Source: Sabellastarte sp. h YS-2021 (Eukaryota; Annelida; Polychaeta; Sabellida; Sabellidae). Taken from it: DNA of 64,000 nt. The notes beneath the pieces were generated by a model. That model worked only from the letters and a program-made list of their open reading frames with translations, did not search any database and was not told where the DNA came from. Positions 1 to 52,220 of this stretch are shown here, piece after piece (positions within the stretch are counted from its first letter, which is position 1; each line of letters starts with the position of its first letter). The stretch covers positions 111,771,793 to 111,835,792 of the forward strand of contig OZ024929.1 of the NCBI GenBank assembly GCA_964017235.1, written 5' to 3'. The translations under genes and the position numbers were made by a program.

Positions 1-820
1 TAATTAGCTATGGGTCTGAAACTTCACCAAGTGAAAGCTCTCCCAAAAGTAGGTGAATGAGTTATTTGACAAAAATTGGCTATCTGCAATACTTTTAGAG
101 ATAATTCGCATTTACTCATTTTGAGTAGGTGAGTAATTAGCTATGGGTCTGAAACTTCACCAAGTGAAAGCTCTCCCAAAAGTAGGTGAATAAGTTATTT
201 GAGAAAAATTGGCTATCTGCAATACTTTTAGAGATAATTCGCATTTACTCATTTTGAGTAGGTGAGTAATTAGCTATGGGTCTGAAACTTCACCAAGTGA
301 AAGCTCTCCCAAAAGTAGGTGAATAAGTTATTTGAGAAAAATTGGCTATCTGCAATACTTTTAGAGATAATTCGCATTTACTCATTTTGAGTAGGTGAGT
401 AATTAGCTATGGGTATAAAACTTCACCAAGGGAAAGCTCTCCCAAAAGTAGGTGAATAAGTTATTTGAGAAAAATTGGCTATCTGCAATACTTTTAGAGA
501 TAATTCGCATTTACTCATTTTGAGTAGGTGAGTAATTAGCTATGGGTCTGAAACTTCACCGAGTGAAAGCTCTCCCAAAAGTAGGTGAATGATTTATTTG
601 ACAAAAATTGGCTATCTGCAATACTTTTAGAGATAATTCGCATTTACTCATTTTGAGTAGGTGAGTAATTAGCTATGGGTCTGAAACTTCACCAAGTGAA
701 AGCTCTCCCAAAAGTAGGTGAATGAGTTATTTGACAAAAATTGGCTATCTGCAATACTTTTAGAGATAATTCGCATTTATTCATTTTGAGTAGGTGAGTA
801 ATTAGCTATGGGTCTGATCA
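1..820. repeat. Tandem array, 133-bp unit, six copies
   Basis: The start of the unit (TAATTAGCTATGGG) recurs at 1, 134, 267, 400, 533, 666 and 799, giving an exact 133-bp period and six full units plus a partial seventh. Units differ at only a few positions, so the array was amplified recently or is being homogenised. The array may continue upstream of the window. A diverged relative of this unit occurs in H3 at about 5560-5680. Confidence 0.92.
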
Positions 821-1325
821 AAATGGCCGCCATTTTTGGCGAGACAAAATTTTTTTGAAAATTGGCATGGCTACTCTGCAGATATACCCTGTGGGTCAAA
901 AATTTCGTCGAAATCGCTCTATCTAGCAGGGTTTTCGAGATATAAGCATTTTTATGTTTTGCAATTTTTGCGAAAAATTCGAAAATTCAAAATGGCCGCC
1001 ATTTTTGGCGAGACAAAATTTTTTTCAAAATTGGGATAACTACTCTGCAGAGATACCCTGCGGGTCAAAAATTTCGTCGAAATCGCTCTATCTAGCACGG
1101 TTTTTGAGATATAAGCATTTTTGTGTTTTGCAATTTTTGCGAAAATTTCGAAAATTCAAAATGGCCGCCATTTTGGGCGAGACAAAAATTTTTTGAAAAT
1201 TGGGAAAACTACTCCGCAGAGATACCCTGCGGGTCAAAAATTTCGTCGAAATCGCTCTATCTAGCACGGTTTTCGAGATATAAGCATTTTTGTGTTTTCC
1301 TTATTTGGAAAATTCGTAATGATTA
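819..1325. repeat. Tandem array, 169-bp unit, three copies
   Basis: The motif CAAAATGGCCGCCATTTT recurs at 819, 988 and 1157, a 169-bp period. Each unit also carries a phrase around TTTCGTCGAAATCGCTCTAT. The array abuts the unrelated 133-bp array directly. Related but diverged units occur at 18930-19220 and 30115-30350. The short open frames across it are repeat-derived, not genes. Confidence 0.9.
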
Positions 1326-1695
1326 ATTAATCATTAATTACTCGGCCATTTCTTGACCAATCAATGCCAAAATCTAATGATTTCCAGATTTTAATAGAAT
1401 GAATGTATTTGCCAAGTTTCAGGTGAATTGATAAAATTCCTTTCAAGTTATCATCCGGACAAGCTTCCCCATCGAAAAAAGACATTTTTGGTCATGTGAC
1501 CTCTCTGATTGGTTGAAATGTCACTGCAGCATATTCAAAAAAATTCCCCAAGGCTACTGCCTAAACCTGCCAAATTTGAAAAGAATCCGCCTAACGGTTA
1601 CAGAGTTATAAGGAAAACAAAATGCGGAGCCGGCGGAGCCGGCGGAGCCGGAAGCTCTCCCATACACAAACAAGCGTCCCGCAAGGGACGCTTAA

Positions 1696-3172: not shown

Positions 3173-3202
3173 AAACTAGAAAAAGGTTTTTGCTAACAAA
3201 AA

Positions 3203-6044
3203 CAAGCGGCCCGGATGGAGACTTGAGTTAATAAAGCTGTAGTAGTTGTGGTATGAGACTGTAAGGAGAAGGTAAGCTTTACTGTGTTTTGTATCTGATG
3301 GGAAAGTAGATTTTCTAAAAACTGTATCAGTTGCAGTATTAGACTGTAAGCAGAATAACAGCAAGGCTAGGCTTGATAAAGCTCAGTGAGAGTGAACCTC
3401 TCCCTTTTCTTTCAATTTCTTTTTTTTTTTTTTTTTTTGTAAGACAGAAAAGATACACATTGCGCACATATTCTCCTCTGTTTGAATGGGGGGAAGTGAG
3501 ACTTGCAACACACACACCTAATCTTATTTCCCCATCACACTTCACCCCCATCCCCCATACACAGAGGCAATTCTTTTCTCACATGCATTTTTATTTGAGT
3601 GAGGGGAGTGGGGAGGGGGCAGATCTGTGCAGAAAAAGACGGGCTCTTCCTCACTGCCCTCACTGAAATAAGAAAAGGTGAGAAAAAGATTATTTACTGT
3701 AGTAGAATGTTTAGGTTTTACAGCAATTACTTAATTATGCAAGGAGCTACAGTTCTGAAATTTTACTACCGTATTTATTGTAATAAACGCCCCCTCCCTA
3801 TTAATCGCCCCCCCCTTCTTCTCTACCTTTGCAAAGTTCATATTTCGGGGTTTTACATCTCTCTCAACAGCCAACATCTTGGCGATTCCGGGATTCCGAA
3901 AAATGGTGCGTTTTAGTACTTCCCAAGTGAATATCGCTTACAAGAAATAAAGAAAATAAAAACGAAACATGGCAGTTTTGGTCACAGACGCATTGAAATC
4001 TGCAAAAATACAAGATAAAACTACATAATTTCTTCAGATTTAAGGTTTGGTTTAAATATTTTAAGCTGTCTCGCCATTATACATGCTAGCAAGTGAGATC
4101 AAGGCAGCAAGTGTCCATTATCGCCCATTGCCACTGGACTCGAGATATGATTTTGTTGAAAAATGCATCGCCCCGGGGCGTTTATTACAATAAATATGGT
4201 ATGTTATAACTGACACCAAACTAAATCAAAAACACATTTAACAAAATACTCTAAATGTAATACTTTTCAAGTTATAAGTGATTTAGTGCATGAATACATG
4301 AATTTTAATGCATAAAAAATTCATAAAAAATAATTAAGAAAGATCCAGGTCTGATACTCCTACAAGGGAATCTACTGGTGGCCTAGTACATATATGCAAG
4401 ATATGAGAGAAATCCCTGTAATAGTCAATGAGAAAATTGTGATAAATTGTTGAAATTTTCAGGGTACCTCTCTTTTAATGGCTCTGGGGAACAAACAAAC
4501 ATACAGATCTGCATGGATTTTATGATTTATCATCATCGATAGATATCTTTTAAAAGGTATCATTTCAAAAATACAGGATATCTCTGGGTCTTGTAGTTTT
4601 GGAGAAGTTGTTCATGCAGACGTCTCAGAGTGATGCCATAATGTCAGCTGACTGTCAAGTCAACTGACATAAAAACAGGAATTTTAAGGAAAAAGGTCAT
4701 TAAAAGTCTTCCTTAAACTTAATGTGTCAAGTTGAACTGATGTCATTGAACACTTAGTCGGTTGGGAGCTGAGAACCCTCATTTTACTTCAAGGTGGCCA
4801 TGACTTTATTTGTATTGGAACTCCAAGGTGGAAAGAAAATAAGAATGTCCCTATTTTCATCTTTAATAAGTTTGCAAAATTTAACCGAGGTCAGCTGAAC
4901 AATACGATAGCTGGAGAGTAATTACTCCATAATTTCACTGCAAGGTGGCCATAACTTCATTCATATTGGGATTTTAAGGTGACCATAAAATAAGAATGTC
5001 CCTTTTGTCACCCTTTATAAGTGCATAAAGTGTAGCTGAGGTCAGTTGAACAATAAGATACCTGGAAGCTGAAAACTTCCTTCTTTCACTGTAAGGTGAC
5101 CATAACTTCATTTATATTGCGACTTTAAGGTGACCATAAAATGAGAATGCCCCTTTCTGCCAACCTTTATAAATGTGCCAAGTTTTATTTTAAAAATTTA
5201 AACATTAACTGAGCTTAGCGCTGAAAAAACCTATATTTTAAGTTTAAGATGGCCATAACATCATTAATATTTAAATCATAAGGTAGTAAGAGTCTACTTT
5301 TTATTTACTTCAATATCAATATACATTAGATATGGAAAAAGAAAGGGGCCAGACAGCTTTATTCCAAATTTTATGACTTTAGGGGGGGGGGCATAGCTCC
5401 AATTATATTAACAGTTTAAGGTCACCATAAAGTCAGGATAATTCTTCAGTAAATCTTAATATATACACCAAGTTTGGTTGAAAAAAGTGAAAAACTAAGT
5501 AAACTGGAGGGCTAAAAACTCCCTTTTTGACATTAAGGTGACCTTAAGATTGGAGATACAGGGCTAAAACTTCGGCATGTGAAAGATTATCAAGAAGTAG
5601 CTTAATAAGTTATCCAACAAAACGCCAAAATCCTGAGCATTTTTGAGTTACAGACCAAGTACCCATTTTAAAAAAAATACGAAAATAAAACACCTCCCAT
5701 TCAGGGATCTATGGTCTGATTGATCAGAAAATCCTTTCCGACCTGCGGATATAGGTCTAGAATTTACCTGATAAATGTTATAGCACAGGTGTGTGTGGTT
5801 TCTTTCCGAAAAGCGATGACGGGGTGTTCTTGAAAAATGCTTAAGGTTACCTTAAGTAAAGCTTAAGGTCTCCGCAAAGTATCCCCAAAATTTTTCCCAC
5901 TCCTATAGTTTTTAAAAAAGATAAGAAGGAAAGAAAAATTTGAAAGCCCAAGAAGTTATTCAAGGGAGACCATAATACAGCGGCGGCAACGGTGATCAGT
6001 CAAACTTATGTGAAAACAAAAAGTGCCCTTGACGGGCCGCTTAA
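3203..6044 (+). mobile_element. Hairpin-ended element, family H3
   Basis: The 5' end is an A-run followed by CAAGCGGCCCGG (3203-3214). The 3' end carries CGGGCCGCTT at 6033-6042, exactly the reverse complement of AAGCGGCCCG at 3204-3213, followed by AA. A CGGCGGC patch lies about 45 bp before the 3' hairpin. The interior has about four diverged units of 150-170 bp around 4790-5280 (phrases such as AAGGTGGCCATAACTTCAT and GACTTTAAGGTGACC), then a segment like the H1 133-bp unit. A TA-flanked MITE is inserted at 3769-4199. No coding capacity is seen. Helentron/HINE-like by structure (inference). Confidence 0.6.
3769..4199. mobile_element. TA-flanked MITE with inverted ends
   Basis: The ends CCGTATTTATTG and CAATAAATATGG form inverted repeats, extended inward by TAATAAACGCCCC at the left and GGGGCGTTTATTA at the right. 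TA lies on both sides (3767-3768 and 4200-4201). The element is 431 bp with no open frame. TA duplication and short inverted ends point to Tc1/mariner-type mobilisation (inference). It sits inside H3. Confidence 0.75.
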
Positions 6045-10973: not shown

Positions 10974-11213
10974 TAATATCTTGGTCTGTTTGTTGCTCCC
11001 TTTTTATAAAATGCCTACGCTGAAAGAAATCCCGTGACTATGGACACTGATACTGTACTGGGCAATTGAGAATGATAAGATTTACGGAATTTGTAAAATG
11101 ATGCTGCATGAATTGAATTCTTTCTTCACACTTCATTGTATTTACAACTTTACACAGTAGATAAATACAGAAATATGCTTTTAATTATAAAAAAACATAC
11201 CTACACCAGAAAT

Positions 11214-11400
11214 TTGAAAATTTTAATTACTTAAATGTAGCTTTTATAAGCTACAAGCTTACCATGTGGGACTGAATGCTTTACTGGTTGCCGCGAGGCA
11301 CAGACGACCAACGCTCGAGAAAAACAAGCATGCAGTTGGTTCGGCCTCATAGGTTGTCGTGACGTCATCACTTCCTGTGTATCAGCCTCCTTTTCGTTGA
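11214..11400. repeat. DIRS terminal inverted repeat, distal copy
   Basis: The stretch 11256-11399 is the reverse complement of about 17375-17518. The outermost 11214-11256 is specific to this end and is copied in the internal complementary region. Confidence 0.9.
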
Positions 11401-11457
11401 GATTAAACCCATGTCCCCTCAGCTGTAATACAGCGGGGAGGTAGGGTGGGACTCTTC

Positions 11458-11560
11458 TCAGTCCCACATGGTAAGCTTGTAGCTTATAAAAGCTACATTT
11501 AAGTAATTAAAATTTTCAATTTTATTGCGCTACAATAGCTTACCATGTGGGACTGAATGC
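11458..11560. repeat. DIRS internal complementary region
   Basis: Positions 11458-11519 are the exact reverse complement of the outer left end (about 11214-11275). The following 11520-11560 are the exact reverse complement of the outer right end (about 17493-17533). The two pieces meet at one point, giving the circle-junction template expected of DIRS elements and fixing the element ends. Confidence 0.9.
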
Positions 11561-12040
11561 TGAATTCAACCGCCCGGTGGCGGGATTACAGCTGAGACTG
11601 GAAGGTCTGAATGTTGTTTTTCTCGAATTGAGAGTAATAAAAAATAGTTCCAAAAAATTTCCAGTCTGAGTCCCATTTACAGAGTCCCAATCCTGAAGGT
11701 CGGACTTGTAAAGAGCCAAAAACCTGATGAGAATACACAGTGTCGTACACTGTAGGGTGTTTGGAAGGAGGATTGTGTACCCGGAGTACACAGATAGGAA
11801 GAACCCCTAAGGGCTATGACGTCAGAAATGAGGTCAAGGTTCGAGAATTGCTATTTGCAACCTTATTTATAAGACAACCTTATGGTCCCAAGAAGTTAAA
11901 GTTAACGTAAATTTAATATGTGTGACCTTACCTGTAACACCCTGATGAGGTAGCTTATACCTAGACCTGGGGAGACTCCTGAAGGATTAGCTGTAGCGGA
12001 CGTGCCCCCCCCCCCCCCCCTTTAGTTTCCGAAGAAGACA

Positions 12041-13528
12041 TCACTGAGGAGAAGGGTCTAGGACCTGTTGAGCCGCTACTACTGGTCCCAGATACATGTT
12101 GTTGTCGTTGTCCGACCAAGTAAGGTCTTTTAGGTAAAAATTGGTAAACGTGTTGTGAGCTTTCCAGTGACACGCTTGCATGATCTGGTCCACCGATACC
12201 CCACCGTAAAAAGCCTTAGAGGCTGCGAAGGCCCTAATGTCATGCGCTTTAACTTGGACTAAGTCCAAGGCTTGCTGGTCTGCTTGCTTATAACAAAGTA
12301 GAATGGTTTGTTTCAACCATGAAGAGAGAGTAGCGGGTCTGATATCTGAGGTATGTCCTTTCTTGAAGGAGATGAAAAGAAGGGACCGGGACCCTCTCAG
12401 GTCCTTGGTTCGGTCCAGATAGTACCTCAAAGCCCGTACAGGACACAAGGTCCTGTCTTCTTTGAATTGTCTATCTACAATGGTAGTCAAGGCAGGAATA
12501 GTCACCGGAGACACACTTTGAGAACCTTCTCTTGCTAGCTGGTTTTTGGCTATAAAATCTGATGAAGGGAACAAGGCCACCTTTTCCCATTGGCCTAGAT
12601 TAGATACTTTGTTGGCGACCCAGGCGTGGATTTCACTGCGGCGTTTGCCGGAGGCCAGAGCTAGCAAGAAAGCAGTCTTGAGAGTGAGATGTTTGAGGTC
12701 TGTGTCTTTCATAGGCTCAAAGGGCGCTTTTGTGAGCTCATTGAGGACAACAGATAGGTTCCACTGAGGAAGGTTTCTGGAACTCTTGGGGCGATCCCTG
12801 TGAAAACTGGAGAGCAACCTGTGAAGGTCCTCATTATGGGCAATATGCTGGGCCGTAGGGCCTAGAGTGTCAACAATAGCTGTCCTGTAACCATCAATGG
12901 TAGAGGGGCGCCTGTTTAGGTCTTGGTACAGATACATAAAGAAATCTGAGATTTGCTTCACAGATGGTGAGGAGAAATCCACCGAATTATCTCTGCACCA
13001 TTTTTCAAATAGGGCCCACTTTGATTTGTAGATGTTCCTTGTTGAAGACCGCTGAGGTGCAGCAATTCTCTCTGCCACTTCCACAGAGAAGCCTTGTTCT
13101 TGGAGTTGTCCACTCCTAGAGACCAGGCGTGGAGGTTGAGGTGCTGCGGGGAGCTGTGGAACACAAAGTTGTGGGACTGCTTGAGGAGTGTTGTCGACAC
13201 CGGGAGTTGTAGAGGGATCTCTGTTGAGAGCTGCACTAGGTCCCAGAACCAGGGCATCCCTGGCCAGCCTGGGGCTATTAGAATGATCAGGCAGGTGCAT
13301 TGCCTGATTTTTTGGATCACCCTGTAAAGGAGAGCCGTTGGAGGGTAAGCATAAGCAGTGAGACCGGTCCAGTCTATGTTTAGAGCATCTATGTCCCAGC
13401 CCTGGGGGTCTGGGATAGGAGACACGTACAGAGGGAGCTTGTGGTTCAGATGAGTGGCAAAAAGGTCCACGTGGGGAGTGAACCACTTTCGGCAGATCTG
13501 TTTGAACACCTGTGGATGGAGTGACCAT
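12041..13528 (-). CDS. DIRS tyrosine recombinase region
   Basis: The second half of this 495-residue frame matches the tyrosine recombinase family. It has an N-terminal SAM-like core-binding segment (about residues 150-250) and a catalytic part with a GKRRSE-type box and later a VKAHDIR segment and a CHWKAHNTF segment, as in DIRS and crypton recombinases. The first 150 residues overlap the reverse-transcriptase frame in another register, an arrangement known for DIRS elements. The enzyme would integrate a circular DNA copy. It is part of the nearly whole DIRS copy. Confidence 0.9.
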   Translation of the reverse strand: MVTPSTGVQTDLPKVVHSPRGPFCHSSEPQAPSVRVSYPRPPGLGHRCSKHRLDRSHCLCLPSNGSPLQGDPKNQAMHLPDHSNSPRLARDALVLGPSAALNRDPSTTPGVDNTPQAVPQLCVPQLPAAPQPPRLVSRSGQLQEQGFSVEVAERIAAPQRSSTRNIYKSKWALFEKWCRDNSVDFSSPSVKQISDFFMYLYQDLNRRPSTIDGYRTAIVDTLGPTAQHIAHNEDLHRLLSSFHRDRPKSSRNLPQWNLSVVLNELTKAPFEPMKDTDLKHLTLKTAFLLALASGKRRSEIHAWVANKVSNLGQWEKVALFPSSDFIAKNQLAREGSQSVSPVTIPALTTIVDRQFKEDRTLCPVRALRYYLDRTKDLRGSRSLLFISFKKGHTSDIRPATLSSWLKQTILLCYKQADQQALDLVQVKAHDIRAFAASKAFYGGVSVDQIMQACHWKAHNTFTNFYLKDLTWSDNDNNMYLGPVVAAQQVLDPSPQ

Positions 13529-15234: not shown

Positions 15235-17108
15235 CTTTTGAGGTGCCTTTTTTGAGAAGGAAGTCCTCGCCTTCCTTCACTGACTGGGAGTTGAACAGGG
15301 AACGAGTCCAGAGAGAGGAATTCCTGAGCTCTTGACGTCTGGTTTCCCCTAATTGTGGCTGCAGGTGGGACATTTCGGCTTCGCGTCTAAGCAAGCCGGA
15401 AGTTGCCATTGTGTAAAGTTCCCTTTGTAAAATATGGGCAAGGGATTTGCTCAGGCAGGTTATGGCCTTATGTTGAATAGTGAGGGTCTTCTCCCAGAGA
15501 TCAAAGTAGTCATAGGCCTCATCATAACCACGTTTTACTGCTTTTTCAGGGTCGGCACCTTTCCTGACCTGGGACTTGACCTTCTTGAAGGTTTCTTTTA
15601 GTCCATAACGACACCTCCGCATGGTAGAGTTGCAGGAGGAGGATGTCTTGGCAAAAGTGGTCGTGAAATTCAAAGTGGTTAGATTGTACCTTGCCTGTTG
15701 TTCTAAGTCCTTGAGGACAGAGAGTGGGACCTTGCCTAAAGGGGCCCCCGAAGGTTTAGGAGATATACAGATCTTGGCAAAGTCTGCATTTAAGTCTTGG
15801 AGTTTCTCCGAAAAACAAGGTTGTCCAACCTTGTACCACTTAGAAGTGGAAGGGGGGGGGGGGCTTTGGGTATTTGCCCTCTGCCAGGTTTGCAGCCATA
15901 AGGTCATTGTTGAATTTGTCAAAGGCATCTCTTATACCAGAGTTGAGGGGCAACATAGCTGATGGACCCGTAGGTCTCAGCTCTTGGACGGCCACCTCGT
16001 CATCGATACCTATGATAGCAGTAGCAGGTCTGGGGACTGAATCCCTCGGATCAGGTAATTTGAGGATACGTCGAAAAGTATCTACCTCCTCCGCATATTG
16101 ATTTGGGATGTCAGCCAGAGCCACATCCCTATAGTAGGGCGGATCAAGGTCAATTTGAGGATGTTCCTGATCATCAGAGGCCATTCTCTGGGGCTTGGGA
16201 GACCTGTGTTTACGTCTAGGGGACTGATCCTCCCCAGACGATGAGGGCAAATATGCGGACCTTGACTTATGTTTAGACTTGTCAGAGTGCTTTTTAGGTC
16301 TAGAATATGAAGGGCGATCATGATCGGAATCAGATCCCGAACCTGAGATTGGAGCATGGCTAACCTTGTGAGAGGACGTCTTGGGGCGAACAGACTGTGT
16401 CTGTTCGGAAGAGCTAAGATGAACGTCCGAACCTTGCTCGGCCTGAAGGCGAGGAGGAAGAGAAGGGCCATATTCAATATCCATGGGTTCTGAAGCACTG
16501 ACAGAGGTCTGAGGTTCGGTGCGAACAGCCGAAGAGGTGATCTTATCAGCCAGCCCTTGTTGAGATTTTAGGAAATCTTCACGCATAGATTTAAGGGCAT
16601 CATAGATGTTGGCCTGAAAAACACCAAATTTCTGATCAAATTTGTGGTCCAAAGACTTTTCTACAGAAGAATGGACTTTATGATGTAAGGCTGTACTGGG
16701 AGTGGGAGGAACAGTACGCCCTGGTGTAGTAAGAGGCAAAGGATCGAAAGATAAGGGTCTGGGACGTGGAGGTGAAGTAAACAAATGATCGGCCGCAGCT
16801 TCAAGTTCGGCTTGCGATCCAGAAAACGATTCAAAAGAATCGCCCAGTACCTCGTCCCGATCTTTGTCCGATGCCTGAGAAGTGGGATGTTTTTTCTTGT
16901 ATCGTCTTCTATTAGCAATTTTAGTGGACTGTTCGTCTGTGAAAGACGCACAGATTTGACAAGTACCAGCTTTTGTAACACACAGATCATCGCCCTTCCC
17001 TGCATCTCTGCAGGAAGGGCAATAGCCATGACTGTTGAATGGCTGACAGAAATGATTGCATTTGCTGGATCTGGGTTTATCTTTAGAAGACTGGTGGGCG
17101 GTGGCCAT
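15014..17108 (-). CDS. DIRS gag-like region
   Basis: The start has a cysteine/histidine-rich segment (CNHFCQ...CPSC...CQICASF) typical of the DIRS first frame. A charged, serine-rich middle follows, and the region ends in an Arg/Gly/Ser-rich, probably nucleic-acid-binding tail. It lies upstream of the reverse-transcriptase region, as in the family. It is treated as one part of the fossil element. Confidence 0.8.
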
Positions 17109-17374
17109 GTTTTAATGCAATAAAATATGAAAATACTCCGAACCGTAGATTCGAGCAGTACTAGTGTAGTGGCGAGCACACAACACGCGAAATAAGAAGA
17201 CGTTAAAAAACTGACAAAATACAGCACCGGAAGTGCTGAAAATTGGGTATAAGATTCTATACTGCTAAATAAAGGAAAAGCCGAATTATGGACGAATGAC
17301 AAACAATATATCCAGAGATATAATAGAAAACAGCTTTGAAAACTTAGCAGAGCATCCAATATGGCGGCGACCAA

Positions 17375-20812: not shown

Positions 20813-20814
20813 CT

Positions 20815-34266: not shown

Positions 34267-34436
34267 CTACATGTAAACCAGGAATATCATTTTAATTCAT
34301 AGCTTAGAAATTATTCTGATTTTTCATATATCAGAAGTACAAATTACCAAAAAAAAAAGGTTAAGCAAACAAAAAGAAATAACCTTGGATTTTTCTTATT
34401 TTCAATAGTTCATAAATTCATCAAAAATTATACAAA

Positions 34437-36566: not shown

Positions 36567-39032
36567 GGAGGACAGACAAAAAGAAACCAGACAAAAAGAA
36601 ACTGTACAAAAAGAAACCAGACAAAAAGAAACCGGACAAAAAGTTTTACTAGTAGGACAAAAAGTTTTTATTTTAAAAAAGTTTCTTTTAACAACATAAA
36701 AACACTATACAACATTTAAACATGAATATTCACAACAATAGCACAAAAATTAGCTCAGAAATAGTACAAAGCTCCATTTGGTAATTACTTAAGCAAGTCT
36801 GTAAACATACAATTGAAACATGTCACACTTTAATGAGTCTTATGGAATGTCCTACACCTTTCAGGAACTCCTCTAGTGATTTGTTGCCACTTTTTATCTC
36901 GGAACACAAGTAGCTGAGGCGCTGTTGGAGATCTTTAGTTGCTTTTTTCACCCATTTTCTTGGTGGCTCCCCTCTTGAGTCTTGGCAGATCTGTAGTCTT
37001 GAGAGGGACTCATCTTCTTTAATATGCGTGAGAAGTCTCCAAACTGATGGATGTTTGTGCCCAACAAGCTGTGAAAAACTATTGTTCCAGGTTTCACATA
37101 GGTTATTTGTACGGGCTCTCACCTCTCAGGGTAGCATTGTGCACATTCCACATCTGTGGAGGAAAAAGTGGAGGCATTTTCCTCAATCTGATGGTTGGTT
37201 GGTCTTCCCCATCCAACATTCCACAAAAATGTCTAAAGCTGCCATTTTCCTTGTAATATTGACTGAGCCCTAATTCTTGTACTTTCCTCCAGGTTGCATG
37301 GGTAAGGTGATAGAAGCAGCCAAGGGTCAACACATGGGGGCCAAAAGTAGCTTTGACTGCATTTATTGCTGCTTGCTCAAAATCCAGATGAACTGTTGTA
37401 GGATCAGGAGTGAAACCAAGCTCTTCGCATCTTTTTAAAAACTGCTTGCATGATCTCTTCATAGTGTGATTGGGATTTTCCAGTCAGTAGGGCATAAACA
37501 CAAGTGACTGCAGAATTCCCTAGTTTGGCCCGGATGATGTAGAGTTGCTGGAATATCTTTGGGGAAAGGCTGAACGTTCCATCAATGAACCACTCATCTT
37601 GCCTGGCCAGGTGTTTGAGAGCTTCATCACTGGCAAAAACCACTACGCGGGACTGGCTCTCTGATCCACTATCATGAATGAGAAATCTTTGGGATCCTGT
37701 TGTCTTGGTCCACTCATCTTCCAGTTTGAACTCTGTGATGGTCTTGGGTTCCTTGGGTAGTGTACCCCTCTGACATCTGCGAATGGACCTCTTTATGCTT
37801 TCCACTCTACCACATTCAGCTCGGACTTCATCATTGACTGCAGACAGCGTGGTTGCTAAGATCTGGGCTGGTCTGTCTCTGGATGAAGTACCTTTCTCTT
37901 TCAAGCTAGCCTTTAACTTAGCCACCTCAACTGTTGTTGAACTGCTTTCATGGCTGTGTTCTTTGACAAGTTCTGGATTGTTATTCTGAAAATAGAAAAT
38001 GCAAAAAAGTAAGCTACAGTATAGTTTTAAAAAGGTCATCAAAATAATCTTATTGTTTATGGATGACTTTAGTCTCTGAACCTAGAACAAAGATATTTCT
38101 GTATTCTCTGATGAGCAGTGGATTATCATTATCAATCAATTTATATCAAAATAGAAAACTTACATCAAGACCTGTTCTGAGAACTGCTTTACATGATAAA
38201 GCAACCTTTTGTGAACACTTCCAGAAAATAGAAGAAGACTTCACAGAAAGCTTTGTGTACATGTATCCATCCATGCATATCTTCAAACCACCTTTATTGC
38301 TTTTTATTATCTCCATAGTTTAAATGGTAAGATGTCAATGATATCAGGAAGAAAATTTAAGCCTTTTATATACAACTTAAATTGTCCTGAGTAGGTAGCT
38401 ATTCCTTTCATTTCTACTCAGTAAACCTACTTCAAGGGAAGATTAAAGTCACAACTCAACTCAGGTACATAAAAGATCATAGGATGATTAAAATAATGCA
38501 ATGTAAGACATTTACTTTAATCAATCAATCAATGGATTAATTTGAATAGAATAAAGGCTGCTTACCTGAATTGAGATTGTATGAATTGGAAGCCAGTTAT
38601 CAATTGACAGTTATGTGTGATTGGAAGTGGCTTTCCTTTTATCCCTTTTTGTCCAAAGAATACAGGGTGAGGGGGTCTATTGGTAAATATAGTTACACAA
38701 AATGCTCATTTAACAATAAATAAAGATTATTAATTGACAAACAGAAGAAGCTATTGATTGGCACACATCCCTTTTTCACTTTATGTTTGACTAAGAGACA
38801 GCAAATAGAGAAGTCTTTTCTTTACAAGAGTAATTGCTATTATGCAAGTTTGACACAAGGTGTTTATAGGAGCCTTAAAGTAATTAGCATTTTTTGAAAA
38901 TTTAATTGAAATTTAAAGTTAATTTTATAGTGAAACTTTTTGTCCTAGTAGTAAAACTTTTTGTCCGGTTTCTTTTTATCTGGTTTCTTTCTGTCTGGTT
39001 TCTTTTTGTCTGGTTTCTTTTTGTCCTACATT
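36567..39032 (-). mobile_element. MULE (Mutator-like) DNA transposon
   Basis: A 2466-bp element with a perfect 9-bp duplication, CTATATATG (36558-36566 and 39033-39041), the size typical of Mutator. The inverted ends of about 100 bp consist of repeated GGACAAAAAGAAACC-type units. H6 copy B at about 43855-43880 has a single CTATATATG and nothing else, so it is the natural empty site. It carries a decayed transposase on the minus strand. Confidence 0.92.
36823..37985 (-). pseudogene. MULE transposase, decayed
   Basis: Three overlapping frames together cover one Mutator-type transposase body. The first (to about 37430) has the catalytic FIDGTFSLSP and the QLYIIRAKLG segment. The second has HLDFEQAAINA with the second aspartate, and GCFYHLTHATWRKV with the C-x-x-H signature between catalytic residues. 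The third has RARTNNLCETWNNSF, the usual C-terminal segment. One-base shifts lie in the A-run near 37434 and at about 37120, so the gene is broken unless these are sequencing errors. A splice acceptor (TTTCTATTTTCAG) precedes the first frame at 37986, and a possible donor for a non-coding first exon lies near 38570. No FLYWCH finger is seen. Confidence 0.85.
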
Positions 39033-39309
39033 CTATATATGTGGTCCATATATATGCACCCTAAATATGTGACACAATCTCAGTTCTGACTCCCCTTTGT
39101 GTTATATGTAATGAAGCCCACCACCTCCCACCCCCACCCCTCTCCCCTTCTCCACACCTCTCTCACTATTACACAAGATCTGCAACCCCATTGAGTTCTT
39201 TGTTTCTCATCTGATATCATTAAATACCTTTGTTTATTTAGTGTCACTCAATATAGCTGGAGGTCCCAGAGGTGGGTGGGGGGAATCCGGGTGGGGGATG
39301 TGGGTTGGG

Positions 39310-39850
39310 ACTTAGTTTAGTTTATTAGTTTATTATAGTGACATGTATTATGTTGACAAGGATTATACAAAAACTATTGAAGTAATACCCAGCCCTATAT
39401 GGGCTTATAAGTCACTTTAAATAGAGAGTTAATAACAAACAGAGCAAACATATTTTGAGGTAAGATACAGTAAATAAAGACAGCAATTCAATACATAAAA
39501 ATTAACAATATAATTTACTTTTTCTTTCTTGCCACAAATCAAAAATAAAATTAATAACCATATTGACATTCATATGAGTTAATACCCTTGATAATTGATC
39601 TATTAATAATTCAGATTTATCTATATTTAAAATTTTGAAATATTTCATACGAATCAGCTCTAAAGCTGGACAAACACAAACAAAATGTATCTCATCTTCT
39701 ACATCTTTTTTACACAGTTTACATGTTCTCTCAAAGAGATGGAGTGCTACAGCATAAATGGTAAACAAACAATCTATATAAAAGGGGTACTCAAATACAA
39801 AAAGAATTGAGAATTTTAAGTATGTGATTATCAACTGAAATGAGTTCATA
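39310..39850 (-). pseudogene. LINE 3' fragment captured in H6 copy A
   Basis: The minus-strand frame at 39502-39849 (115 codons) has the post-RT cysteine motif CKLCKKDVEDEIHFVCVCP followed by an RMKYF helix and DLWQERKSKLY, as at the C-terminus of many LINE polyproteins. The flanking 39310-39420 resembles a LINE tail also found at 59335-59410 (CCCAGC...GGGCTTATA.GTCACTT). The same piece is in H6 copy B (44150-44690), so it was captured before the copies separated. Confidence 0.65.
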
Positions 39851-40189
39851 ACTGTAGGAGCTGTGTCAAAATGAACTGAGGCAAGTTGAATAAAACTGGG
39901 CTAGTTGAGGGTTAAAAATCCCCTAGTTTTACTACATACGGATATAATTTCATTAATATTGGGACTTAAAGCTCACTTAAAGTGTCCATTTTGTCAACTT
40001 GAATATGTTTAACCGGCGTTTAACCAGTTTCATTTTAAAAAGTTAAAAACTCAGCAAGCAGAGGTATAACACACAAAAATAAGTTCTTAAAAGACTAAGA
40101 TAGCCATAACATTATTAATATTCAAAATTTAAATAGACAGGCATTTCCTTTTAAAAATTCAAAGATTTCAGCTCTATAACCCACATAGT

Positions 40190-41960
40190 TTGACAGTTAC
40201 TGGGCTTTAAAGTGGCATAATGTCCATAAATTGGGTTTCTGTGGGCATTTTACAATTGTTAAAGAGACCTTAGCAATTAAACTACAGATCTGAAACTTTT
40301 TGGGGGACATACATAACAAACAAAAATTATATATAATACAGTTTAAGACTTGTCACACTAAGCATTTCCAAATAACAGGGCAAAATACGGAAAAAATGTC
40401 CAAAAAGGCACTTGGGCGAGTGTCTATGGCCCTCATACACAGGTTAAATGTCTACTAAAAACCTTGATTTTCGCCATATGTAAAAAGGACATAATAATGC
40501 ATTCCCAGATGGGATTTCAGCTCCATCAATCACATAGTTTAACAGTCACAGGGCTTAAAGGTGGCAAAAAGTCCAAATATTGGGTCTCTGTGGGCCTTTT
40601 AGAGATCTCGATGTGGCTTTCAAATTAAAGCTTCAGACTAAAAATTTGTTACATACTAAGATTACACATAGAATATGTATCTAATAAAGTTTGAAACTTC
40701 TCAGACTTACCATTTCCAAGTTACAGAGCAAAATATGTGAAAAATGTCTTAAAAGGGTCACTCAGGTGGGTGTTTAAGGTCCTCATACACAGGTTAAATG
40801 TCTACTTGAAGCCTTGATTTTTGGCACATGTAAAAAGAACATAATAATGTATTCCCAGATGAGATTTCAGCTCTATCAGTCACATAGTTTAACAGTCACA
40901 GGCCTTAAAATTGGCAAAAAGTCCAAATACTGGGTCTTTATGGGGCCTTCTAGAGACCTAAATGTGGCCTTCAAATTAAAGCTTCAGACTTAAAATTTGT
41001 CACATACTAAGATTACACATAGAATATGCATCTAATACAGTTTGAAACTTCTTAGACTTACCATTTCCAAGTTACAGGGCAAAATATGTGAAAAATGTCT
41101 AAAAATGGTCACTCGGGTGGGGATTTATGGTCCTCATACACAGGTTAAATGTCTTCTTAAAGCCTTAATTTTTGGCACATATATAAATAACATACTAATA
41201 TCTTCCCAGATAGGATTTGAGCTCTATCAGTCACATAGTTTGACAGTCACAGGGCTTAAAAGTAGCAAAAAGTCCAAATATTGGGTCTTTGGTAGCCTTT
41301 TAGAGACCTCAATTTGACCTTCAAAATTAAAGCTTCAGACTTAAAATCTGTTACATACTAAGATTACACACAGAATATATATCTAATACAGTTTGAAACT
41401 TCTCAGACTTACCATTTCCAAGTTACAGGGAAAAAGATGTGAAAAATGTCTTATAAGGGTCACTCGGGTGGGTGTTTATGGTCCTGATACACAGGTTAAC
41501 TGTCTATTAAAGGCCTAAATGTTGGGGCACATATAAGAAAACACATAGATATATTCCCAGATGATATTTAACTTAGATGAGAGACATAGTTTGAAAGCTA
41601 CAGTGCTTGAAAGTGGCAAAAAGTGCATAAATTGGGTCTCTGTGGGCACTTTTGAGACCTTAAGTCGAACCCTTTGGGTAAACCTACAGCCCTAAAATTT
41701 TCTACAGACAAGGATTACATATCAAAGTTATACCTAGCACAGTTTGAGACTCATCAGAATTACCACTTCCAAATTATAGGGCAAAATATGTGAAAAGTAT
41801 AGCAAAAAATCCCTAAGTGGGGGTATTTATGGGCCTCAAAGACAATTTTCTCCTCAACTTAAAGTCGTGATTTTCGGCACATGTACTAAGAACATATTAA
41901 TGTGTTGTCAGGTAAAATTTCAGCCAGCTGAGCATCATAGTTTGTGACCTACAGGGCTCT
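40190..41960. repeat. H6 core repeats, about 350-bp unit, five copies (copy A)
   Basis: The phrase CACATAGTTTRACAGTCACA with GGCAAAAAGTCC recurs about every 350 bp, as do TACACAGGTTAAATGTCTAC and CTTACCATTTCCAAGTTACA. Units are diverged from one another but match copy B position by position, so the array predates the duplication of H6. Confidence 0.85.
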
Positions 41961-42200
41961 AAGTGGCCAAAAGTGCAATTTCTGACCTTAAGGTGGCCAT
42001 AAGTTCTTTTTTACTGGGAGTTTAAGGTCACCTTAAAATAGGGATCTTCCTTTGGGCACCCTTAACATGTGTACCAAGTTTGAAAAAAAAATATTAATTT
42101 GTTTTTGAGTTATCGCGTCCACAAGGAAATTTCTACGGCGGCGGCGGCGGCGCGACGGACCTGAATCCAATATATCCCCGACTTTCGTCTGGGGATATAA

Positions 42201-43100: not shown

Positions 43101-44149
43101 GGTGCATTTAAATGTATGGAAGTAATTTAATTGAAACACTTTTTGTATAGAGGTAAGCTGGGAACTGATGATTATTTATGATAAAGAAAATGACAAGAAA
43201 ATCCTCAGAAAGTACTTTGACACATTTATAAAACTTTTTTTTTTTTGCTAGTGATTATCTGTGTTAAGTATTGAGGAGATAAAGTAAAAGTAAAGAACCT
43301 AAAAAGAGAAAAAAACTAGATTGGGCCAACTCGGCGCCAACATATCCCCAGACAGGTCATCACTCACGCCACAGGTTTTGATCGGGAATTTTTAAAAACA
43401 TAATTACCCATTATTATATGAACTTCAGCACATCAATCTACTCTGTTTATATCTTCCCAAGGAAGATGGTGTATCCCCAGACGCCGAATACATAACTCAA
43501 ATTATATTTTCAATCTTCCTGCAATGATAACTCTAAACCTATTTTCAAAGTATTTAAATGATTGATGATTGAATGTCCATTCAAAAATAATAATCCCAAA
43601 AGAGCATATCTGTTTCTATATTTGTTGACAAATAAAATATTATTTTTAACTCAACTCATCATACTTTTCAATCTTCCTTCAAAGTATTTAAATGATTGAT
43701 GATTCAATGTCCATTCTAAAATTCATAATCCCAAAAGCGCATATCTGTTTCTATATTTGTTCACAAATAAAATATTATTTTAAAAAAAATTATTTATATT
43801 ATTATTTTATTATATTATTTTTAGAATTTGCAAATTGTTTTCAGTTATTCATTTCCTCTATACCTATATATGTGGTCCATATATATGCAACCTAAATATG
43901 TGACACAATCTCAGTTCTGACTCCCCTTTGTGTTATATGTAATGAAGCCCACCACCTCCCACCCCCACCCCTCTCCCCTTCTCCACACCTCTCTCACTAT
44001 TACACAAGATCTGCAACCCCATTGAGTTCTTTGTTTCTCATCTGATATCATTAAATACCTTTGTTTATTTAGTGTCACTCAATATAGCTGGAGGTCCCAG
44101 AGGTGGGTGGGGGGAATCCGGGTGGGGGATGTGGGTTGGGACTTAGTTT

Positions 44150-44690
44150 AGTTTATTAGTTTATTATAGTGACATGTATTATGTTGACAAGGATTATACA
44201 AAAACTATTGAAGTAATACCCAGCCCTATATGGGCTTATAAGTCACTTTAAATAGAGATTTAATAACAAACAGAGCAAACATATTTTGAGGTAAGATACA
44301 GTAAATAAAGACAGCAATTCAATACATAAAAAATAACAATATAATTTACTTTTTCTTTCTTGCCACAAATCAAAAATAAAATTAATAACCATATTGACAT
44401 TCATATGAGTTAATACCCTTGATAATTGATCTATTAATAATTCAGATTTATCTATATTTAAAATTTTGAAATATTTCATACGAATCAGCTCTAAAGCTGG
44501 ACAAACACAAACAAAATGTATCTCATCTTCTACATCTTTTTTACACAGTTTACATGTTCTCTCAAAGAGATGGAGTGCTACAGCATAAATGGTAAACAAA
44601 CAATCTATATAAAAGGGGTACTCAAATACAAAAAGAATTGAGAATTTTAAGTATGTGATTATCAACTGAAATGAGTTCATAACTGTAGGA
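44150..44690 (-). pseudogene. LINE 3' fragment captured in H6 copy B
   Basis: The same captured LINE C-terminal piece as at 39310-39850. The frame is 145 codons here because of a substitution near its end. Confidence 0.65.
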
Positions 44691-44999
44691 GCTGTGTCAA
44701 AATGAACTGAGGCAAGTTGAATAAAACTGGGCTAGTTGAGGGTTAAAAATCCCCTAGTTTTACTACATACGGATATAATTTCATTAATATTGGGACTTAA
44801 AGCTCACTTAAAGTGTCCATTTTGTCTACTTGAATATGTTTAACCGGCGTTTAACCAGTTTCATTTTAAAAAGTTAAAAACTCAGCAAGCAGAGGTATAA
44901 CACACAAAAATAAGTTCTTAAAAGACTAAGATAGCCATAACATTATTAATATTCAAAATTTAAATAGACAGGCATTTCCTTTTAAAAATTCAAAGATTT

Positions 45000-46770
45000 C
45001 AGCTCTATAACCCACATAGTTTGACAGTTACTGGGCTTTAAAGTGGCATAATGTCCATAAATTGGGTTTCTGTGGGCATTTTACAATTGTTAAAGAGACC
45101 TTAGCAATTAAACTACAGATCTGAAACTTTTTGGGGACATACATAACAAACAAAAATTATATATAATACAGTTTAAGACTTGTCACACTAAGCATTTCCA
45201 AATAACAGGGCAAAATACGGAAAAAATGTCAAAAAAGGCACTTGGGCGAGTGTCTATGGCCCTCATACACAGGTTAAATGTCTACTAAAAACCTTGATTT
45301 TCGGCATATGTAAAAAGGACATAATAATGCATTCCCAGATGGGATTTCAGCTCCATCAATCACATAGTTTAACAGTCACAGGGCTTAAAGGTGGCAAAAA
45401 GTCCAAATATTGGGTCTCTGTGGGCCTTTTAGAGATCTCGATGTGGCTTTCAAATTAAAGCTTCAGACTTAAAATTTGTTACATACTAAGATTACACATA
45501 GAATATGTATCTAATAAAGTTTGAAACTTCTCAGACTTACCATTTCCAAGTTACAGAGCAAAATATGTGAAAAATGTCTTAAAAGGGTCACTCAGGTGGG
45601 TGTTTAAGGTCCTCATACACAGGTTAAATGTCTACTTGAAGCCTTGATTTTTGGCACATGTAAAAAGAACATAATAATGTATTCCCAGATGAGATTTCAG
45701 CTCTATCAGTCACATAGTTTAACAGTCACAGGCCTTAAACTTGGCAAAAAGTCCAAATACTGGGTCTTTATGGGGCCTTCTAGAGACCTAAATGTGGCCT
45801 TCAAATTAAAGCTTCAGACTTAAAATTTGTCACATACTAAGATTACACATAGAATATGCATCTAATACAGTTTGAAACTTCTTAGACTTACCATTTCCAA
45901 GTTACAGGGCAAAATATGTGAAAAATGTCTAAAAATGGTCACTCGGGTGGGGATTTATGGTCCTCGTACACAGGTTAAATGTCTTCTTAAAGCCTTAATT
46001 TTTGGCACATATATAAATAACATACTAATATCTTCCCAGATAGGATTTGAGCTCTATCAGTCACATAGTTTGACAGTCACAGGGCTTAAAAGTAGCAAAA
46101 AGTCCAAATATTGGGTCTTTGGGAGCCCTTTAGAGACCTCAATTTGACCTTCAAAATTAAAGCTTCAGACTTAAAATCTGTTACATACTAAGATTACACA
46201 CAGAATATATATCTAATACAGTTTGAAACTTCTCAGACTTACCATTTCCAAGTTACAGGGAAAAAGATGTGAAAAATGTCTTATAAGGGTCACTCGGGTG
46301 GGTGTTTATGGTCCTGATACACAGGTTAACTGTCTATTAAAGGCCTAAATGTTGGGGCACATATAAGAAAACACATAGATATATTCCCAGATGATATTTA
46401 ACTTAGATGAGAGACATTGTTTGAAAGCTACAGTGCTTGAAAGTGGCAAAAAGTGCATAAATTGGGTCTCTGTGGGCACTTTTGAGACCTTAAGTCGAAC
46501 CCTTTGGGTAAACCTACAGCCCTAAAATTTTCTACAGACAAGGATTACATATCAAAGTTATACCTAGCGCAGTTTGAGACTCATCAGAATTACCACTTCC
46601 AAATTATAGGGCAAAATATGTGAAAAGTATAGCAAAAAATCCCAAAGTGGGGGTATTTATGGGCCTCAAACACAATTTTCTCCTCAACTTAAAGTCGGCA
46701 CATGTACTAAGAACATATTAATGTGTTGTCAGGTAAAATTTCAGCCAGCTGAGCATCATAGTTTGTGACC
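45000..46770. repeat. H6 core repeats, about 350-bp unit, five copies (copy B)
   Basis: The phrase CACATAGTTTRACAGTCACA recurs at about 45010, 45360, 45710, 46063 and 46413. It is colinear with copy A. Confidence 0.85.
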
Positions 46771-47019
46771 TACAGGGCTCTAAGTGGCCAAAAGTCCAAT
46801 TTCTGACCTTACGGTGGCCATAAGTTCTTTTTTTACTGGGAGTTTAAGGTCACCTTAAAATAGGGATCTTCCTTTGGGCATCCTTAACATGTGTACCAAG
46901 TTTGAAAAAAAAATATTAATTTGTTTTTGAGTTATCGCGTCCACAAGGAAATTTCTACGGCGGCGGCGGCGCGACGGACCTGAATCCAATATATCCCCGA
47001 CTTTCGTCTGGGGATATAA

Positions 47020-48759: not shown

Positions 48760-49156
48760 TAATAAACGGATTTATATTCTAATGCATCATGTTCTGTGCT
48801 AGCTTTATGGGACCAATTCATTCAGTCACTGATTGTTTGTATAAATTTAAATTGAAATATCTTGCTTATTACAATGTGGTTTCACAGGAATTCAATAGAA
48901 TAAAGAATATACTTATACAAATAGGTGTGAGAACAATTCTCTAACCACATGGTTTTATACAACATAGACAATAGGTATAAGAACAATACTCTAACCAGAT
49001 GGTGAAACAATACACATTCCCTTCTAGTAAGTGACAGATGACATGGAGGTTGACCTAATAATTATATAATTACAATTTATGATATAACTCTATTGATAAA
49101 GCAATTACATACTTCAAACATAAACAAACTAGAAGAATGTTTTTTGCTAACAAAAA

Positions 49157-52100
49157 CTAGAGATTGCGTCTCGACGCAGTGTATCCCCGGACGGGACATA
49201 GTTAAGGCGTGAATGTGTCAGGCTTGAGCCTGTTTCCTGGAGCACCAGGTCAGGATTCTCCATAGTACCAGATTACTTCCAAAAGCTAATCACTAGTTGT
49301 TTCACTTATATCTGTCTTTAAAAATTACATTTCATGGATCCAGAAGATCCATATAGTGATCCGGATCGCTTCCAAAACTCAATCATTTCATCCTTTTACC
49401 TTTTCAGACATATTCTAAAAATTTCATCAAAATCCATAAGTTTTTGAGTTATCTTGTACACAGACACATCTGGCAGCCTGGATCCACATGATCCAGACAG
49501 TGATCCAGATTACTCCCAAAATCTAATCACTTGTTCTTTGTCCCATTTAAGACATTTCCTGAAAATTTCATAAAAATCCATTCATGACTTTCTGAGCTAT
49601 TTGTCTTTAAAAATTACATTCACGGATCCAGAAGATCCAGATAGTGGTCCAGATCACTCGCAAAATTGAACCATTTCTTCCTTTTACCACTTCTTCCTTT
49701 TTACCATTTGTAACATATCCTGAAAATAGTAAAATCCATTCCAAGATTATGTGCAAGCCTGGATCCAGATGATCCAGATCACTCCAAAAATGTAATCACT
49801 TGTTCCTTGTACCATTTAGGCCATTTGCTGAAACAATCCATCCATAATTTTTTGAGGTATCTGTCTTAAAAAATTACATTTCATGGATCCAGAAGATCCA
49901 TATAGTGATCCGGATCACTTCCAAAATTCAATCATTTCATCCTTTTACCACTTCTTCCTTTTACTATTTGTAACATAGCCTAAAAATATCATCAAAATTC
50001 ATCATAAAATCATGTTGCAGGTTCGATCTAGATGATCCAGACGGTGATCCAGATCATTCCAAAAGTATAATCACTTGTTCCTTGTACCATTTAGGTCATT
50101 TGCTGAAAATGTCATCACAATCCATCCATAACTTTTTGAGGTATGTCTTATTACATTTCACGGATCCAGAAGATCCATACAGTGATCCGGATCACTTCCA
50201 AAATTCAGTTATTTCATCCTTTTACCTTTTCAGACATATCCTGAAAATTTCATCAAAATCCGTCCATAAGTTTTTTTGCTACAATGTACACAAACACATC
50301 TGGCAACCTGGATCCAGATGATCCAGACAGTGATCCAGATCACTCCCCAAATCTAATAACTTGTTCCTCGCACCATTTAGGTCATTTGCTGAAAATGTCA
50401 TCACAATCCATCCATAACTTTTTGAGGTATCTGTCTTATTACATTTCATGGATCCAGAAGATCCATATAGTGATCCGGATCACTTCCAAAATTCAGCCAT
50501 TTCATCCTTTTACCTTTTCAGACATATCCTGAAAATTTCATCAAAATCCGTCCATAAGTTTTTTTGTTACAATGTACACAAACACATCTGGCAACCTGGA
50601 TCCAGATGATCCAGACAGTGATCCAGATCACTCCCCAAATCTAATCACTTGTTCCTCGCACCATTTAGGTCATTTGCTGAAAATGTCATCACAATCCATC
50701 CATAACTTTTTGAGGTATCTGTCTTATTACATTTCATGGATCCAGAAGATCCATATAGTGATCCGGATCACTTCCAAAATTCAGCCATTTCATCCTTTTA
50801 CCTTTTCAGACATATCCTGAAAATTTCATCAAAATCCGTCCATAAGTTTTTTAGCTACAATGTACACAAACACATCTGCAACCTGGATCCAGATGATCCA
50901 GACAGTGATCCAGATCACTCCCCAAATCTAATCACTTGTTCCTTGCACCATTTAGGCCATTTGCTGAAAATGTCATCACAATCCATCCATAACTTTTTGA
51001 GGTATCTGTCTTTAAAAATTACATTTCATGGATCCAGAAGATCCATATAGTGATCCAGATCACTTCTAAAATTCAACCATTTCATCTTTTTACCTTTTCA
51101 GACATATCCTGAAAATTTCATCAAAATCCGTTCATAAGTTTTTGAGCTTTATTGTACACAAACACATCTGGCAGTCTGGATCCAGATGATCCAGACAGTG
51201 ATCCGGATCACTCCCAAAATCTAATCACTTGTTCCTCGTCCCAATAAGGACATCTCCTGAAAATTTCATCAAAATGCACCCATAACTTTTTGAGCTATCT
51301 GTGTTTAAAAATTAAATTTCATGGATCCAGAAGATCCAGACAGTGATCCGGATCACTCCCAAAATTTAATCACATCTTCCTTTTACCAATTTGGACATAT
51401 CCTGAAAATTTTATCAAAATCCGTCTGTCAGTTTTTGAGTTATCTTGTTTACAAACAAACAAACAAATAGAGGGCCCAAAATGACCCTCGGTCAGGTACT
51501 TTGGCGGTCAGTGGATGACCTTCAACGAAGATCTGTAACCGGTCAGCCTGGATGCTGGTACTCCATCATGTACTCAACCTCAAAAGCCATTTTCAATAGT
51601 TTCCACGCAATGTAGTCAGCATTAAGTGTGAAAATATTTCCAAATATGCCAAAAAATGACCCTTGGTCAGGTACTTTGGCGGTCAGTGGATGACCTTAAA
51701 TGAAGATCTGTAACCAGTAAACCTGGATGGCAGAAGTCCATCATGTACTCAACCTCCAAAGCCATTTTCAATAGTTTCCATGCAATATAGTCAGCGTTAA
51801 GTGTGAAAATATCTCCAAAAAGACCAAAAATGCCCCTCGGTCAAGTACTTTGGCGGTCAGTGGATGACCTTCAATGAAGAGCTTCAAGGTCAAATTTCTG
51901 CATGGTTATAGAGGACATATATATGTATTATATATACCAGCCATAGGATGATCTAACTTTCTGTCTTGGAGAACTGGGCCAAAATGTGCAAAAATGGCCA
52001 AAATCTGACCTTTAAGTGGCCACCAGTGACCTTGAGATTGAAGGTCAAGGTCACAAAACAATAGCGTTCGTGGCATTGCCCATATATACCCACATACCAA

Positions 52101-52220
52101 ATTTGAAAGTTCTAACTAAAATATTTTTAAAGTTATCGCGTCCAAAAGGAAATCTCTGCGGCGGCGGCGGCGTGACCGTACTGAATCCTAAGTATCCCCG
52201 ACTTTCGTCCGGGGATACAA
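49157..52220 (+). mobile_element. Hairpin-ended element, family H7
   Basis: The 5' end is an A-run then CTAGAGATTGCG, a small palindrome GCGTCTCGACGC, and the motif GTATCCCCGGACG (49181-49193). The 3' end has GTTATCGCGTCCAAAAGGAA, a GCGGCGGCGGCGGCG run (about 52158-52172), then the hairpin GTATCCCCG/CGGGGATAC with AA. CGTCCGGGGATAC at 52206-52218 is the reverse complement of the 5' motif over all 13 bases. The core is a GATC-rich array, then three units of about 175 bp (AGTGGATGACCTTCAA...) at 51477-51900 and a 3' module shared with H4. No coding capacity. Confidence 0.72.
49330..51430. repeat. GATC-rich higher-order tandem array, about 288-bp period
   Basis: Two alternating subunits of about 145 bp form a 288-290-bp higher-order unit: CATCTGGCAACCTGGATCC recurs at about 50299, 50587, 50875 and 51165. 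One subunit carries the 16-bp palindrome AGTGATCCGGATCACT (about 49912, 50182, 50470, 50758, 51343) and the other AGTGATCCAGATCACT. The first part (49330-50050) is more diverged than the middle. Confidence 0.9.

Follow-up and report, generated by a model that had tools for sequence, protein, structure and literature searches.

Helentron-like elements with family-specific matched ends in a repeat-rich stretch of a sabellid worm genome

A 64,000-nucleotide stretch of the Sabellastarte sp. contig OZ024929.1 (the window; the contig, C3 below, is part of a 1.79-Gb genome) carries several families of repeats that are very probably non-autonomous Helentrons, namely Helentron-associated interspersed elements (HINEs), akin to the Drosophila interspersed elements (DINEs) and with Helitron2-type ends. 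We put this identification, together with the anatomy on which it rests, at roughly 0.9. The families differ in a short motif that recurs, inverted, at the two ends of an element, one copy lying in a terminal hairpin; the hairpin marks the 5' end, and one family, H8, has a full-length coding parent in the same genome. More tentatively, at a probability of about 0.45, we propose that the two motifs, or subterminal inverted repeats (subTIRs), are an intramolecular base-pairing device in which the 5' subTIR would abandon its local hairpin, often the weaker structure, to pair with the 3' subTIR.

In all, 124 kb around the window were read, and negative coordinates denote positions upstream of window position 1. 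Our analysis distinguishes nine families (H1–H4 and H6–H10). H2, H3, H4, H6, H7 and H8 were located through their motifs, the first-pass annotation that described them having given no coordinates; H1 is our label for the element truncated by the left window edge, and no H5 was identified.

Layout and paired ends of the elements

Read on the minus strand, where all the HINEs of the window lie, an element opens next to a T-run, its first subTIR folding back on a partial inverted repeat to form the 5' hairpin. It usually continues through a microsatellite and a tandem array, and it closes with another subTIR, a short palindrome and CTAG or CTTG against a further T-run. The 5' subTIR sits at the terminus as the distal arm of the hairpin and folds with the adjacent partial inverted repeat, the proximal arm. 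Between the 3' subTIR, or inner motif, and the 3' terminus, a palindrome is clear by inspection in H1, H3, H4, H7 and H9 and imperfect in H6 and H8. Microsatellites and central tandem repeats are present, not both in every element, and in the flanks that we inspected the DNA is T-rich and the sequence outside the ends variable, in keeping with a possible insertion between T and T without target site duplication.

The subTIRs match exactly over 10–13 nt in H3, H4, H6, H7 and H8, over 9 nt in H1, and with one or two mismatches in H2. H3 (3176–6044) pairs an inner motif at 3204–3213 with a distal hairpin arm at 6033–6042, and has a 3' CTAG, a GTTTTTG..CAAAAAC palindrome and an imperfect 5' hairpin. 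H4 (24382–27374; motif 24416–24425, arm 27363–27372) combines CTAG and a GCATCGG/CCGATGC palindrome with a 147-bp array of 17.3 copies, a CGG microsatellite and a perfect 5' hairpin. H8, only 0.9 kb long (34437–35348; motif 34461–34472, arm 35335–35346), has a CAAG 3' end, a GTCY-type microsatellite and a 5' hairpin. H6 is present twice: copy A (36011–42200; motif 36037–36048, arm 42187–42198) has a CTAG end, a 351-bp array and a 5' hairpin, together with an additional ~2.5 kb (about 36566–39033) that lacks a counterpart in copy B (43316–47019; motif 43342–43353, arm 47006–47017), which carries the same ends at another insertion site. H7 (49157–52220; motif 49181–49193, arm 52206–52218) has CTAG, a TGCGTC/GACGCA palindrome, a 148/288-bp array, a CGG microsatellite and a bulged 5' hairpin; adjoining its 3' end is an additional H3-like 3' tip (49129–49156) that is not found in a second H7 copy upstream. 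In each of these six pairs AA follows the hairpin and CTAG or CAAG precedes the motif.

Only the hairpin-side part of H1 lies in the window (1–1695, the whole element spanning about -1405 to 1695), with 133-bp and 169-bp tandem arrays and a canonical 5' hairpin, AAGCGTCCC-GCAA-GGGACGCTT, at 1672–1693 with AA next. Its missing partner is the sole AAGCGTCCC on that strand in the 20 kb upstream, at -1354, where ~0.08 would be expected by chance. The H1 inner motif, exact over 9 nt, lies 51 nt inside AAAAACTAG, its CTAG tip, beyond the limit of about 35 bp proposed in the first-pass annotation. Outside the window and its surroundings, family H9, recognized by its CAAG end and TGTCAGCTGA motif, has copies at C2:137350202–137353811 and C5:143530060–143526659, while H10 (-26853 to -27127) is oriented opposite to the other HINEs in the 124 kb. 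The orientation common to the remaining twelve copies or ends is a pattern noticed afterwards, in a single region. By eye, H10 and the H7 array have a common central repeat sequence despite their different ends, suggesting module exchange between families.

H2 is more complex. The hairpin-side (5') part of copy 1 (1696–2565, hairpin 2533–2563) is broken by H1, and the order of its matches to copy 2 shows that copy 1 reaches from the hairpin at 2563 back to a tip at about -3431 and encloses two nested elements, H1 (-1405 to 1695) and a third H2 copy (about -3279 to -2187). The tip at about -3431, whose motif at -3403 has one mismatch, is most likely the partner of the copy 1 hairpin; a tip at -3269 was dropped as the partner once the nested third copy was seen. 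Between the ends of the third copy there are two mismatches, each end carrying a change private to it, and an H2 copy elsewhere on C3 (tip 189219069, hairpin 189217157) has one. Copy 2 (31222–33699) contributes an inner subTIR at 31234–31245 and a tandem array, and is broken by a foldback element with long inverted arms (about 32252–33665); we looked for its hairpin end and did not find it. The exact H2 pair that had been described stems from two copies, the inner motif of copy 2 and the hairpin of copy 1, and is rejected as a pair because the H2 copies read at both ends are mismatched, although the composite is exact, as expected of a family consensus. Moreover, four H2 tips carry GAAAAAT(A/G)GCA or a near-match just outside CCAGAG, which makes the proposed CCAGAG start doubtful; the C(T/A)AG rule stands for H3, H4, H6, H7 and H8, which have CTAG or CAAG.

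Could such pairs be picked by eye from AT-rich repetitive DNA, in which short inverted matches and hairpins are common? A motif match by itself is weak evidence, because a loose test for exact 10-nt inverted matches beside weak hairpins, which finds 89 in the window, mostly in tandem arrays and AT-rich DNA, also finds 2–17 in each of 20 order-2 Markov controls of 64 kb. The full grammar (AC(T/A)AG 15–59 nt before the motif, hairpin, AA and at least 40% G+C) performs far better, with 17 hairpin sites in 324 kb against 0–5 (mean 1.5) in each of 20 order-3 shuffles. Thirteen of the 17 were accepted, the other four being array or low-grammar matches that look spurious. These sites derive from 18 pairs with exact 9-nt matches, of which we set aside three with A at 6156 (minus strand), one at C3 168676221 and the cross-pair 36037/47017. 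The same search gave 3 pairs in the reversed, 0 in the complement and 10 in the forward control, and the six forward-control matches listed lie in GGTCA-type repeat DNA. The search that yielded H9, scored with each overlapping register as a separate match, gave 10 one-mismatch and 10 exact matches in the tested mode, against 14 and 0 in the forward control and none in the reversed and complement controls. In addition, copies of H6, H7 and H8 at different sites end at the same bases (H6 copies A and B and one on C11; H7 and its upstream copy; H8 and three full-length relatives), and the H1 partner turned up outside the window. On the shuffle comparison we reject pure chance, whose probability we regard as negligible.

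How often the ends match depends on how they are chosen. There are 12 such hairpin ends in the 124 kb (the second H7, H1, H2 copies 1 and 3, H3, H4, an orphan, H8, H6 copies A and B, H7 and H10), and in a list partly selected by matching, 9 of the 12, the second H7 included, have a partner that is exact for 9 nt or more; two are mismatched (H2 copies 1 and 3) and one, the orphan, is partnerless. Of six sites chosen on hairpin and microsatellite, blind to the partner, five had an exact one over at least 9 nt. These six sites are 7 rows kept for their microsatellite flag from a listing of 51 hairpin rows; H2 copy 1 was additionally kept by hand, and tandem arrays, the foldback element, isolated hairpins and H4's own 3' palindrome were set aside.

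Other transposon classes fit these ends poorly. A canonical Helitron (Helitron1) is ruled out by the 5' hairpin, the subTIRs and the 5' T-run, with only the 3' CTAG in common, and a terminal-inverted-repeat transposon or miniature inverted-repeat element is ruled out by an inner motif that lies 24–51 nt inside the CTAG/CAAG end. Scanning IMG/VR for an H6/H7 hairpin string gave no matches.

A full-length parent of H8 and the direction of the elements

The genome holds at least 24 matches to PF14214 (Helitron_like_N), and we read 200 kb around nine of them. Three, on C3, C2 and C4, belong to full-length Helentrons of 12–13 kb that carry H8's ends, are 98.6–99.1% identical to one another in long matches and have unrelated sequence outside their ends. 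In the C3 copy, a 2088-residue open stretch within locus L010 joins Rep, a PIF1-type helicase and an endonuclease in one protein, with matches to DUF6570, Helitron_like_N, PIF1 and Exo_endo_phos. The Exo_endo_phos match falls short of its cut-off of 24.5 bits in the whole protein, at 21.6, and passes it, at 26.5, in a scan restricted to that part. Part of the protein matches PIF1 helicases and the Helraiser structure; a search of solved structures with the endonuclease part gave no matches. In the C2 copy the gene is split over two overlapping open stretches, and the two stretches scanned contain Rep and PIF1 but not the endonuclease. The first-pass annotation was thus right to read the ends as asymmetric Helentron/HINE ends, and the autonomous Rep/helicase element that it proposed to seek exists for H8.

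H8 matches these copies over ~550 bp from their inner 5' end at 88–90% identity and over their last 159–174 bp at 97–100%, which identifies it as a deletion derivative of a full-length Helentron. The C3 copy matches the 5' part of H8 in one piece from H8 position 85 on and in a 63-bp piece at the 5' tip.

The orientation of the elements follows from the three full-length copies, whose Rep domain is in every case encoded away from the hairpin and towards CAAG; the hairpin-plus-AA side is therefore the 5' end and CTAG/CAAG the 3' end. What had been annotated as the start is therefore the 3' end, and for families other than H8 we carry this direction over by layout.

Each full-length copy (L009–L014, L024) has two tandem 5' ends, 600–770 bp apart. 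The outer 5' motif matches without error in the C2 copy and is off by one position in those on C3 and C4. The latter two occupy unrelated sites, which leaves two possibilities: movement with an imperfect pair, or the same change arising independently at a CpG in each. A related arrangement occurs on C11, where an H6 copy lies beside a Rep match and two H8-type 5' ends 440 bp apart. Among the nine Rep neighbourhoods, a full-length matched pair was found in only three, all of H8 type.

What keeps the ends matched

HINEs would be moved in trans by Helentrons that encode Rep, helicase and endonuclease. Movement most likely starts with a Rep nick between the 5' T and the subTIR, after which the strand would be displaced until the 3' palindrome and CTAG end the transfer. 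In the displaced strand the subTIRs would be complementary. Their continued matching is most likely due to pairing with each other, or to binding of the inverted pair by a family-specific Rep, which would displace the 5' hairpin and join the ends, presumably in a circle. If the subTIRs do act by pairing, their sequence would be free to drift as long as complementarity is kept.

Comparison of the hairpin arms is consistent with pairing between the ends. In six families (H2 as a composite), the distant motif equals the distal arm in all six and the proximal arm is imperfect in five; H4 is the perfect one, as is the H1 hairpin. By predicted energies that take no account of how far apart the two ends lie, the DNA duplex of the isolated arms is more stable than the hairpin in five of the six, H4 again being the exception. 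Over the outer 10 nt in eight families, the distant motif matches at 78 of 80 positions and the proximal arm at 68 of 80, with full proximal-arm matches in H4, H8 and H9. When the pairings of the eight families (without H2) are permuted, only 1 of 40320 arrangements reaches 78, so the pairs belong together, a result tempered by the entry of H9 and H10 through searches that require matching motifs (one mismatch allowed for H9).

The clearest case involves H6 and H7. Although the families had been called unrelated-looking, the hairpin-side flanks of these two are 84–86% identical over 94–97 bp, which makes that description an overstatement; matches to H4 are weaker and partly CGG repeat. Their proximal arm, TATCCCCGAC, is the same apart from its first base and lacks one subTIR base. 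At the base missing from this arm, the distal arms of H6 and H7 differ and the distant motif changes in step; the H7 bulge can be placed at either of two neighbouring bases. Maintenance of the hairpin alone would not yield this difference, because distal arm and distant motif change together while the hairpin arm stays constant. In this one pair of families, the difference fits end pairing or common recognition of the ends, and it would be a clean signature of a pairing device.

Common recognition is the more serious alternative, one that we consider possible if somewhat doubtful: a family-specific Rep would bind the same sequence at both ends, and families would differ through Rep specificity rather than strand pairing. 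Consistent with such binding, H8 has exactly the subTIR that its full-length relatives carry at their 3' end and at their inner 5' end, and the motif classes seen by eye (TAYCC-like, AAGCGNCCC-like and others) could track Rep lineages. Yet the subTIRs of H6 and H7 diverge at two positions, in the 5' and the 3' copy alike and despite closely similar 5' flanks; one of these positions is that of the base missing from the hairpin arm. Bao and Jurka (2013, PMC3627910) also report compensatory changes in two related Culex elements.

Several further observations weigh against the overall reading, pairing included. A Rep that binds both ends would give the same matching. The lagging proximal arm is not general, because the H1 and H4 hairpins are perfect and, within the outer 10 nt, those of H8 and H9 show no mismatch either. 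None of the three H2 copies read at both ends has an exact pair of its own (1, 2 and 1 mismatches), and for the orphan HINE-like 5' hairpin end (ATGTCCACC..GGGTGGACATAA, 30708–30736, beside CGG-containing DNA) there is no matching inner motif in the 124 kb around the window. No full-length parent of any family other than H8 was found in the regions read. Finally, a perfect pair may not be necessary for movement, as the C3 and C4 copies share their one-mismatch outer 5' motif. The perfect match claimed for each case thus stands for H3, H4, both H6 copies, H7 and H8 and fails for H2, the second H7 copy, the outer 5' end of two of the three full-length copies and the orphan. Likewise, the idea that each family needs a matched pair gains a little from the 9 of 12 ends with exact partners and loses by the two full-length copies with the same one-mismatch motif.

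The first-pass annotation had also suggested that the hairpin is rewritten during copying, such that the distal arm would be renewed from the distant motif, or the reverse, in each round by template switching or conversion. Rewriting would leave behind a distal arm identical to the distant motif and a lagging proximal arm, the state of five of six families. One-sided mismatches are nevertheless present in the second H7 copy (a single one, at position 12 of 13), in three H2 copies and at the outer end of two of three full-length copies, and one mismatch is the commonest state in most HINEs of Crassostrea gigas, according to Vojvoda Zeljko et al. (2020, PMC7492417). Selection on active copies followed by decay accounts for such mismatches. 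As they fall on either side, as in decaying copies, we reject hairpin rewriting, which appears highly improbable.

More broadly, the families form a natural set for testing strand pairing against protein recognition at Helentron ends. Filing them together also assigns much of a repeat-rich window to a single known transposon group, and the direction of these elements is corrected.

Window context and comparison with known systems

Two other features of the window deserve mention. Positions 11210–17533 encode reverse transcriptase and RNase H between 144-bp inverted terminal repeats, with a weak tyrosine-recombinase match (E 0.0085) below the cut-off; the element resembles a DIRS-type retrotransposon. 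A host-type gene resembling 2-phosphoxylose phosphatase has its best named relatives in molluscs, at about 30–34% identity, and closer unnamed ones at up to 52%.

The layout has already been described in flies, mosquitoes and oysters, and the finding is in this sense largely ordinary. Because subTIRs, the partial hairpin arm, compensatory changes and a pairing model are all in print, we file these elements in a known transposon group. In Helitron2 (Bao and Jurka 2013, PMC3627910), a 5' asymmetric terminal inverted repeat (ATIR) forms the 5' hairpin with downstream bases and a 3' ATIR lies just upstream of the 3' hairpin; compensatory changes are described between two related elements, and pairing of the 5' and 3' ATIRs is proposed to break the 5' hairpin. 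The asymmetric repeats and hairpins here have the same layout. In contrast to those elements, which come from algae, mosquito and other hosts, we find nine families in one genome and an endonuclease in H8's full-length partner. A library search found no paper that links the name Helentron with compensatory changes, a point that Bao and Jurka nevertheless treat under the name Helitron2.

The DINE-1 elements of Drosophila (Yang and Barbash 2008, PMC2374699) have 13-bp subTIRs that differ among species and types, with a subTIR mismatch in one species, and combine a partially complementary 5' inverted repeat with a GTCY microsatellite, variable central repeats, a 3' stem-loop and TT insertion. By comparison, the families described here diverge more within one genome, end in 3' CTAG/CTTG and in several cases carry CGG rather than GTCY. 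Thomas et al. (2014, PMC4067079) describe HINEs as non-autonomous deletion derivatives of elements encoding Rep, helicase and endonuclease, and define a family by identical subTIRs of at least 11 bp; our results add further families, with an autonomous partner for H8 only.

The same layout is seen in the Pacific oyster Cg_HINE set (Vojvoda Zeljko et al. 2020, PMC7492417), 11 elements built of a subTIR, an inverted repeat, a microsatellite, a satellite-like array, a second subTIR and a palindrome, in which one subTIR mismatch is common. The oyster HINEs could not be related to autonomous elements in Repbase, whereas H8 is tied to a coding parent, a link beyond the reach of that study. Lastly, the self-insertion model for the Fusarium Helitrons (FoHeli, PMC5148889) yields an element with two 5' ends, and the three full-length copies here, each with two 5' ends and with unrelated flanks, are as that model predicts.

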